From: a candidate division FCPU426 bacterium
Lineage (GTDB): Bacteria; Oederibacteriota; Muellerivitia; Muellerivitales; Muellerivitaceae
NCBI GenBank assembly: GCA_030041545.1
Contig: JASHNQ010000013.1
Span: forward strand, 1 to 64,000
Reading direction: 5' to 3'
Length of the DNA: 64,000 nt
In this document: piece after piece, positions 11,566 to 13,625 of the stretch
How the letters are laid out: each line of letters begins with the position of its first letter
Numbering within the stretch: position 1 is the stretch's first letter
Notes under the pieces: model-generated
Seen by the model: only the letters and a program-made list of their open reading frames with translations
Told to the model about the DNA's origin: nothing
Database searches by the model: none
Translations under genes and position numbers: made by a program

Positions 11566-12159
11566 TTATTTTTTAAGCGAGCTTTTAATCGCAGATAATA
11601 TTTCGCTTTCCTCAACCGTCGTTGGCTGGACATCCCGCAAAGTTTTTCTGGCCACTACTTGCGGGTTTACCGCGTCAACCTCCGCCAGCGTTTCCTCCGC
11701 GCCCTGCGGAACCAGGTGCACTTGAAAATCCGCGATGAATTCCAAGGGCGTTTCCCAGAAATCCGTATAAACCGCCGACTTGCAAACCGGGTTACGGTTG
11801 CAGCTGATAAACACGTCATTTTCGTTCACGGGATTCTTGAAAATTTTAATTTCGGCCGGATGACGGTCGCCCTTCCAATACAAAGTAAAGGTGGGTGGAA
11901 AATTGGGAGGTTTTGGAAAGATACCTTGGGGATTTTCCTTAAAGACCCGGTTGATTGCCTTTTGGATCTTATAAACCGAACCCTTGAGGACCATTTGAGT
12001 GGGGTACGGTTGTAGAAGAGGGTGAATTACCACCCTGGGCTGACCACAGCCTGAAAGTCCTAAAATCACTAAAAAAAGCCAAATTTTGAAGGTTTTTTCA
12101 GCCTGTTGCGATCGCAAAACCCCATCTCCCCATTGGAAATTCTTCAAAACCTGCCTCAT
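11566..12159 (-). CDS. Lipoprotein of unknown function
   Basis: 197 aa. A lipobox LGLSGC (Cys at about residue 38) follows a hydrophobic stretch IWLFLVILGLSG. The 25 residues before it are unusually long, so the real start may be the in-frame TTG near residue 15. The body (about 60-170) has no recognised domain. Two Cys in FISCNRNPVCKSAVY could form a disulfide. The tail is charged, ending ILSAIKSSLKK. It is divergent from mraZ with a 166-bp shared upstream region. Confidence 0.65.
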   Translation of the reverse strand: MRQVLKNFQWGDGVLRSQQAEKTFKIWLFLVILGLSGCGQPRVVIHPLLQPYPTQMVLKGSVYKIQKAINRVFKENPQGIFPKPPNFPPTFTLYWKGDRHPAEIKIFKNPVNENDVFISCNRNPVCKSAVYTDFWETPLEFIADFQVHLVPQGAEETLAEVDAVNPQVVARKTLRDVQPTTVEESEILSAIKSSLKK

Positions 12160-12220
12160 CTTACACCGTCTTGACGTTCCAGCCTCTATGTAAAATCCCC
12201 CATTTTTCAGGAAAATCCGC

Positions 12221-12249
12221 TTGACGCTGTCCCGAAGTGGTTCAATAAT
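12221..12249 (+). promoter_or_regulatory. Promoter of the dcw cluster (PmraZ)
   Basis: TTGACG (12221-12226), a 17-nt spacer and AATAAT (12244-12249); each hexamer matches 5 of 6 consensus bases. The start site should be near 12256, giving a leader of about 70 nt before the mraZ GTG. Confidence 0.75.
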
Positions 12250-12281
12250 GGCGCAAAGTGGCAGATAGTGGTAAAAAGTGG
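12234..12281 (+). promoter_or_regulatory. MraZ operator: five phased GTGG boxes
   Basis: GAAGTGG (12234), ATAATGG (12245), AAAGTGG (12255), ATAGTGG (12265) and AAAGTGG (12275). The last four start exactly 10 bp apart. MraZ is known to bind direct repeats about one helical turn apart upstream of its own gene (TGGGN in E. coli, AAAGTG-type in mollicutes). The array covers the spacer, the -10 and the initial transcribed region, as expected for autorepression. Confidence 0.8.
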
Positions 12282-12325
12282 TGAAATTCTAAAAACCCAT
12301 TATTTTTCAAGGCTTTGGAGGCCTC

Positions 12326-12784
12326 GTGTTTCGAGGGATCTTCCACAACTCAGTAGATGACAAGGGGCGCACGAGCATTCCGGCGCGGTTCCGCGAACAA
12401 ATCCGCGACAGCCATGAAACGCCACTGGTTTTGACCTTGGGGTTCGACCAATGCCTTTTTCTTTACCCCATGGATGCCTGGAAAAAGATCGAGGAGAAGC
12501 TGGCTTCCTTGGACACCTTGAACTCGGAAGTCCGCCAGTTCCAGCGCACGATTTTGAAAGCCACCGATGAGGTGGAGATGGACCAGCAGGGGCGCATCGT
12601 GATTTCGCCGGTGTTGAGGAAGGAAGGCGGCATTCACAAGAGCGTGGTGATCGTAGGGATGCTTCACCGCATCGAAATCTGGGATAAGGAGAAATACGAG
12701 AACTACCACGCCCAGACGACGCAATCGCTTGAACTTTTGGGACAGAAGCTCTCTGACAAGGGCATACAGTCGCTTACGCTCTAG
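12326..12784 (+). CDS. mraZ: Transcriptional regulator MraZ
   Basis: 152 aa with two SpoVT-AbrB-like halves: FRGIFHNSVDDKGRTSIPARFRE (residues 2-24) and VEMDQQGRIVISPVLRKEG (about 88-106). MraZ forms ring oligomers that bind repeats in the dcw promoter. The start is GTG at 12326 with GGAG at 12317-12320. It is the first gene of the cluster. The 96-bp gap to the next gene is filled by a palindromic repeat, unlike the usual tight mraZ-rsmH junction. Confidence 0.95.
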   Translation: MFRGIFHNSVDDKGRTSIPARFREQIRDSHETPLVLTLGFDQCLFLYPMDAWKKIEEKLASLDTLNSEVRQFQRTILKATDEVEMDQQGRIVISPVLRKEGGIHKSVVIVGMLHRIEIWDKEKYENYHAQTTQSLELLGQKLSDKGIQSLTL

Positions 12785-12880: not shown

Positions 12881-13234
12881 ATGGAAATCGGAATCGAGAT
12901 CAAGGAAAAGTTTTCTTGGATCCACGTGAACGGCGATTTGAGCGAGGGCGACTTGGGAAAGTTGGGGAATGCGGTTGAAACTTTGATGAAAAAGGGCTAC
13001 TTGCACGTGGTTTTGGATTTGACGGACGTTCCTTACATGAACGCCAAAGGGTTGGGGGCCCTGGTCAACCATTGGACCCACGTGCGCTTCAAGAGGGGGG
13101 ATCTCCGCATTGTCGGCCCTAACAGCCGCCTCCTGCACCTGTTCCGGGTCATGGGCGTGGACGCGCTTTTCGACATCTACCAGGATGTCCACGAAATGAT
13201 GGAGAAAACGGGAAGGCTTCCCGCCATCGCTTAA
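12881..13234 (+). CDS. STAS-domain protein (anti-sigma-antagonist fold) in the dcw cluster, first
   Basis: 117 aa, a complete STAS domain: strand IKEKFSWIHVNGDLSEGDLGKLGNAV, core LHVVLDLTDVPYMNAKGLGALVNHW, then LRIVGPNSRLLHLFRVMGVDALFDIY. SpoIIAA-type antagonists have DSSG with a phosphorylatable Ser at the helix start. Here the same position reads NAKG, so serine-kinase switching is unlikely. It sits between mraZ and rsmH with GGGGG just upstream of the ATG, and is followed by a second STAS gene. A binding or scaffold role in division control is inference. Confidence 0.85.
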   Translation: MEIGIEIKEKFSWIHVNGDLSEGDLGKLGNAVETLMKKGYLHVVLDLTDVPYMNAKGLGALVNHWTHVRFKRGDLRIVGPNSRLLHLFRVMGVDALFDIYQDVHEMMEKTGRLPAIA

Positions 13235-13289: not shown

Positions 13290-13625
13290 TTGGCTATCTA
13301 CATAACCAACGAAGCCATAATCGTGCTGCGCCTGTCGGGGGACGTCGGGGTTTCCGACATGGACGCGCTTTTGCGCAAGATGACGGACTTGGTCCTGGAG
13401 AACAAGAATAAAGTCGTCCTGAACTTCCGCCAAGTAAGGCACGTTTCCCTGAACGCCATCTCCAAGCTGGCCGAGCGCAACCAGCGCTTCCGGGCCCTGG
13501 GCGGGGAGATCAAACTGGCCGGACTGACGCCCTACGTCGCCAACCTGTTCAAGTTGGTCGGGGCTTATTCCGGCTTTGACATATCCCTCGATGAGGAAGA
13601 AGCACTCGCCCGCTTTGAAAGCTGA
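13290..13625 (+). CDS. STAS-domain protein in the dcw cluster, second
   Basis: 111 aa, TTG start at 13290 with AAAGGAAAAG upstream. STAS pattern: AIIVLRLSGDVGVSDMDALLRKM, NKVVLNFRQVRHVSLNAISKLAERNQRF, GGEIKLAGLTPYVANLFKLVG. The switch motif position reads SLNA, so the phosphorylatable Ser is absent here too. It is only distantly similar to its neighbour. Its last 35 bp overlap the start of rsmH, so the STAS pair is firmly embedded in the operon. Confidence 0.83.
   Translation: MAIYITNEAIIVLRLSGDVGVSDMDALLRKMTDLVLENKNKVVLNFRQVRHVSLNAISKLAERNQRFRALGGEIKLAGLTPYVANLFKLVGAYSGFDISLDEEEALARFES

Follow-up and report, generated by a model that had tools for sequence, protein, structure and literature searches.

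A five-box candidate MraZ operator in the dcw promoter of a candidate division FCPU426 bacterium, with a distal box in a recurrent slot 21 bp upstream of the triple

The window, a 64,000-nt stretch of DNA, carries upstream of mraZ an array of five boxes that is very probably an MraZ operator, in which boxes 3–5 would form the canonical triple, box 2 would share its bases with the −10 element, box 1 would be auxiliary, and the whole would mediate negative feedback. The operator is, in its predicted role, an ordinary autoregulatory one, and is uncommon in having five boxes. The features of the region, with matches counted against AAAGTGG and with the promoter elements and ribosome-binding site assigned from sequence alone, are as follows.

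12221–12226, + strand: −35 element TTGACG, of which TTGAC is kept in 8/8 family genomes
12234–12240, + strand: box 1, GAAGTGG, predicted auxiliary distal MraZ box in the −35/−10 spacer, 6/7 matches
12244–12249, + strand: −10 element AATAAT, inside box 2, 17-bp spacer from the −35 element
12245–12251, + strand: box 2, ATAATGG, degenerate and merged with the −10 element, 5/7 matches
12255–12261, + strand: box 3, AAAGTGG, first box of the canonical triple, 7/7 matches
12265–12271, + strand: box 4, ATAGTGG, canonical triple, 6/7 matches
12275–12281, + strand: box 5, AAAGTGG, canonical triple, 7/7 matches
12317–12321, + strand: GGAGG, likely ribosome-binding site of mraZ
12326–12784, + strand: mraZ, GTG start, 152 aa, predicted autorepressor with two PF02381 domains

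A preliminary description had placed five boxes at 12234, 12245, 12255, 12265 and 12275, the last four at exact 10-bp intervals, and both the sequence and the shuffle scores bear this out. Successive boxes are 11, 10, 10 and 10 bp apart; boxes 2–5 are contiguous at 10-bp steps, box 1, 11 bp from box 2, is not, and the distance from box 1 to box 3 is exactly 21 bp, or two helical turns at 10.5 bp. Summed over the five boxes there are 31/35 matches to AAAGTGG. Boxes 3–5 account for 20/21 and provide, ahead of mraZ, the three or more directly repeated AAAGTGK-like words, in steps of 10 bp, that characterize an MraZ operator. When the whole window was shuffled 60 times with dinucleotides preserved and both strands were scanned for five-box arrays with steps of 10 or 11 bp, the best score was 25 versus the observed 31, and 0/2000 shuffles of positions 12160–12325 reached the observed three-, four- or five-box score; a chance origin of the array is ruled out by these shuffles.

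The promoter is of the σ70 type, with TTGACG and AATAAT separated by 17 bp, and box 1 lies inside the spacer. The −10 hexamer and box 2 have five bases in common; for this reason, and because it reads ATGG instead of GTGG, box 2 is by sequence the weakest box. From the position of the −10 element, transcription is predicted to start at about 12256, within box 3. The array overlaps the −10 element and this predicted start of the dcw promoter, in agreement with the earlier claim that it extends over the spacer, the −10 element and the start site.

The downstream gene, which begins 45 nt after box 5, is a true mraZ. Its product has two PF02381 stretches in one protein (115 bits versus a curated cut-off of 23), and residues D11, K13, R15, D86 and R90, which belong to the D..K.R and D..GR motifs with a role in DNA binding, are invariant in 40/40 aligned proteins. 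The monomer model (pLDDT 91.4) adopts the MraZ fold and can be superimposed on Mycoplasma MraZ (1n0e_C; Z 21.3, rmsd 1.7, 137 aligned) and on Mycoplasma genitalium MraZ, which has the same fold (9sz7_H; Z 20.1, rmsd 1.5, 138 aligned). Two STAS genes, mraW, ftsL and a penicillin-binding protein gene with PASTA follow 3′ of mraZ and mark the dcw operon, and the nearest named relatives are candidate division FCPU426 MAGs.

The loose pattern GTGGN{5,7}GTGGN{5,7}GTGG has 29 matches in the 3.8-Mb genome, versus 40 for the reversed control, and 12258–12281 is the only one of the 29 in which both gaps are 6. Furthermore, ATGGN6RTGGN6GTGG occurs once, at the operator, and its control not at all. A wider MraZ regulon in this genome is rejected for the triple patterns scanned, since the loose triple is no commoner than the control and the strictly phased site is single. 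Given the match to the consensus and the fact that only one GTGG triple of the genome is strictly phased, autoregulation of dcw is the likeliest role of the array. The identity of mraZ, the consensus match, the single strictly phased triple and the phylogenetic footprint described below all argue for the original proposal that the dcw promoter contains an MraZ operator.

In the mechanism that we propose, ring-forming MraZ would read one box per subunit. Boxes 3–5 would constitute a triple of high affinity that spans the transcription start and the beginning of the transcript, while box 2 would serve both as −10 element and as weak box. Box 1, located in the spacer on the same DNA face and two helical turns upstream of box 3, would provide an auxiliary contact. 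MraZ on the triple plus box 1 would span the entire −10 region and exclude RNA polymerase, so that the negative feedback acting on mraZ and the genes that follow would become tighter or steeper.

The array resembles the MraZ operators described previously. E. coli MraZ represses its own operon, and the boxes are its sites, according to the part of PMC8475190 available, and the operators described in the available parts of PMC5282649 and PMC7761207 have three or four contiguous boxes. In Mollicutes, the MraZ binding site upstream of mraZ is (AAAGTGKN3)3 (Fisunov 2016, as quoted in PMC5282649), with the same 7-bp word and 3-bp spacer as in the window; it consists of three contiguous boxes, to which the window adds two, one merged with the −10 element and another lying two turns upstream of the triple. 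The Burkholderia cenocepacia dcw operator has, in the available part of PMC7761207, four repeats of 7 nt, separated by 3 nt, that overlap the transcription start. Repeat length, spacer and overlap with the start are as in the window, except that all four repeats lie downstream of the −10 element, whereas boxes 1 and 2 of the window lie in the spacer and the −10 element. The E. coli K-12 mraZ promoter, read directly, has, downstream of the −10 element, three boxes in exact steps of 10 bp, like the triple of the window, but its array (a chain of three by our scan) has no upstream extension. Cryo-EM structures of Mycoplasma genitalium MraZ with its promoter (9r4j and 9sz7) include, by their titles, one with a four-box promoter, released in 2026, compared with five boxes in the window.

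The phylogenetic footprint of the family, comprising eight genomes with our own included (L003–L010), shows that boxes 2–5 are conserved: 21/28 of their columns are invariant versus 0/12 spacer columns (Fisher p 9e-6). The slot of box 2 reads ATGG in 8/8 genomes. Box 1 is kept in 3/3 genomes of the genus, where 6/7 of its columns are invariant versus 2/10 other spacer columns (Fisher one-sided p 0.013), and is absent from the other five of the eight family genomes. Its restriction to the genus suggests that the genus added, or alone kept, the fifth box, and its absence from 5/8 family genomes suggests that it is not needed for the basic switch. The preliminary description had listed the five boxes without distinction, and their equivalence as sites is not supported, with box 2 doubling as −10 element and box 1 being a genus-level addition.

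The loss of box 1 from most of the family is also what would be expected of a plain three-box operator, in which only boxes 3–5 are bound, box 2 is a −10 element followed by GG, and box 1 is a GTGG in the spacer that arose by chance or is drifting. Two features of the footprint speak against this reading, which we consider improbable. Specifically, box 1 is retained throughout the genus while its flanks change, and box 3 itself reads ATGG in two relatives (L009 and L010), indicating that a box can tolerate ATGG even where a −10 element does not call for it.

The footprint and the spacing bear as well on the proposal that spaced G-rich repeats act as a G-quadruplex DNA structure. The available part of PMC11796246 claims this for the Staphylococcus aureus mraZ promoter, with a G4-forming motif downstream of that promoter and conserved G4-forming motifs in the mraZ promoters of other species. 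In the window, however, the runs are only GG, 8 bp apart, conservation tracks the box phase and the A-rich 5′ half of the boxes rather than the G runs, and a quadruplex gives no reason for the exact 10- and 21-bp spacing. We regard a quadruplex as highly implausible here, and an array of MraZ boxes remains the preferred reading.

The possible dual nature of box 2 was addressed through the register of the −10 element, predicted in anchored mraZ promoters outside a contig set of mainly Bacteroidetes and Flavobacteria. When the −10 element starts 11 bp before the triple, a GG behind it would complete a box in phase with the array. GG follows the −10 element in 9/13 promoters of this register (6/13 from our own family) and, with our own family removed, in 3/7 (p 0.02), compared with 3/50 promoters in all other registers. 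Although the sample is small, the GG tracks the register of the −10 element to the array, which favours a dual role, with box 2 as a compromise of weak box and −10 element, and is at odds with the three-box reading. Box 2 as promoter sequence alone became less likely after this test, which includes seven promoters outside our own family.

To place the box number in context, we surveyed 199 mraZ upstream regions for the longest chain with steps of 10 or 11 bp and at least two strict boxes. The regions are a non-random sample, comprising 74 from the contig set (most titled Bacteroidetes or Flavobacteria), 30 relatives' loci, 14 extra loci, 80 among the matches listed in an mraZ search of 389 genomes (316/389 matched), and E. 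coli. The longest chain has three boxes in 120/199 regions, two in 27, four in 16 and five in 8; 28/199 regions have no array by the survey definition. Three boxes, the commonest array and that of E. coli K-12, are what the three-box reading would predict. Three of the eight five-box chains are from the window's own genus.

By these counts, five-box candidate MraZ operators are uncommon (8/199), and six-box ones exist. The contrast that the preliminary description drew between five boxes and the three or four of most described operators is supported for this sample, while uniqueness of five boxes is ruled out by the further five- and six-box arrays. In particular, upstream of mraZ, with offsets given relative to the triple, five boxes lie at −22, −11, 0, 10 and 20 in G197 and G063, and at −21, −11, 0, 10 and 20 in G319; G906, G1006 and G1030 have five strict boxes at exact 10-bp steps, and G802 and G875 have six (0, 10, 20, 30, 41 and 52). 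The closest analogue of the window is G062, with RTGG at −32, −21, −10, 0, 10 and 20 and ATGG at −10.

The position of box 1 recurs in other families. Regions were anchored on an exact GTGK triple at 10-bp steps, which made 131/199 usable, and boxes were counted by upstream offset. Our own family and the mainly Bacteroidetes and Flavobacteria contig set were left out of the family count; a first profile treated each of 64 regions as a separate family, although three families were, or may have been, represented twice, and a recount by family gave 62. GTGK is present at −21 in 7/62 families and at −10 in 7/62, whereas the 35 other upstream offsets average 0.31 families and do not exceed 3. The count at −21 was reached by 0/1000 dinucleotide shuffles at −21 and by 1/1000 at any of 34 offsets. 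Within the contig set, many of whose members are related, GTGK occurs at −21 in 15/53. The slot at −31/−32 is weaker, with RTGG at −31 in 4/62 families. The enrichment of the −21 slot in unrelated families further weakens the view of box 1 as a chance GTGG.

A genome scan blind to mraZ, for GTGG upstream of a GTGG triple, gave the same offset. Repeat-rich genomes were excluded from the tallies (nine from the 389-genome scan, five and three in the tallies for the phyla of G229 and G222), and the places listed are the first ones of each genome. In the 389-genome scan there are 16 places at −10, 14 at −21, five each at −11 and −22, and at most three elsewhere; all 14 places at −21 are upstream of mraZ (G166, G196, G062 and G366 among them). 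The phylum of G229 (345 genomes) has 23 places in two families at −21, 12 in two at −20, six in two at −32, and at most three at other offsets; one family in this phylum uses −20. The phylum of G222 (299 genomes) has 29 places in 14 families at −10, nine in six at −21, five in three at −18, and three in three at −22. Since −18 and −22 are also used there, −21 is preferred in that phylum and not exclusive.

Linkage to mraZ at −21 was checked for the nine places in G222's phylum and for 2/23 in G229's. Of the places fetched, 17/20 and 19/20 are upstream of mraZ, and the rest come from stretches that are cut or hold no mraZ. Altogether, 17 families besides that of the window have GTGG at exactly −21. 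They span at least three phyla, namely the window's own and those of G229 and G222; the latter two are taken as different because no family label is common to both. The literature searched, much of it unrelated to MraZ and without the two founding papers, named no such distal box at −21 or elsewhere, and we do not claim its absence from print.

In the 15 promoters where GTGK or ATGG occupies −21, the predicted −10 element starts at −7 in six, at −11 in three, at −12 in two, and once each at −8, −13, −14 and −24 (the last doubtful). The varying start suggests that the extra box is in phase with the array and not with the −10 element.

Other arrangements of extra boxes were also seen. Family f282 (G469 and ten further genomes) has an extra GTGG at −20 with a nearly fixed sequence between, and G450 is linked to mraZ. 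Four genomes of one family in G229's phylum (G574, G720, G626 and G429) have GTGG at −32 and −21 in addition to the triple, that is, five boxes with one slot skipped; G574 is linked to mraZ. On the downstream side, a lone GTGG at +41, 21 bp after the last box, mirrors the −21 slot in 5/64 regions (L155, L157, L158, L139 and L144) and is also present in G789, G829 and G824 (L257–L259).

The distal box of the window thus points to a recurrent two-turn slot upstream of the triple. We give roughly even chances to the generalization that MraZ operators across bacteria carry a hidden lone box in the promoter spacer, exactly 21 bp upstream of the triple, while the −10 element occupies the intervening slot; the ring would stay in phase across the promoter by skipping one contact, and the −10 element would be free to evolve. 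On this sequence evidence, the window's genus has both the distal box and a −10 element still readable as a box.

The preliminary description had suggested a larger arc of the MraZ ring or cooperative repression, and on the reading proposed here the arc of one ring may extend to the distal box. Alternatively, the distal box might serve a second MraZ ring or a ring-to-ring contact, a possibility that we consider doubtful. The frequent isolation of the distal box by an empty slot, and the two-turn spacing on either side of the triple that the +41 boxes create, would suit two rings, while the continuous five- and six-box arrays need no second ring. Few regulators of bacterial division genes are as widely kept as MraZ, and structural work is now asking how a repressor shaped as a ring engages boxes laid out in a line. 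A distal box set apart from the triple makes such an operator a direct test of the subunit number on DNA and of ring opening versus site skipping, as well as of base sharing between −10 element and operator.

Three minor observations concern the surrounding genes. A divergent 197-aa ORF on the minus strand (11566–12159), with a lipoprotein-like start and no Pfam match, has its intergenic region in common with the dcw promoter. The two genes between mraZ and mraW (12881–13234 and 13290–13625) encode STAS-domain, anti-sigma-antagonist-like proteins; a STAS match occupies the mraZ–mraW slot in 21/30 relatives' loci and in 0/11 of loci L039–L049, with two copies in 7/8 family loci, and the genes are, by their predicted domains and distribution, a lineage-specific insert in the dcw operon. 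Finally, a MAG titled Proteobacteria (L034, JAJPJW010000184.1) carries an FCPU426-like mraZ locus with 94% identity and is probably mislabelled.
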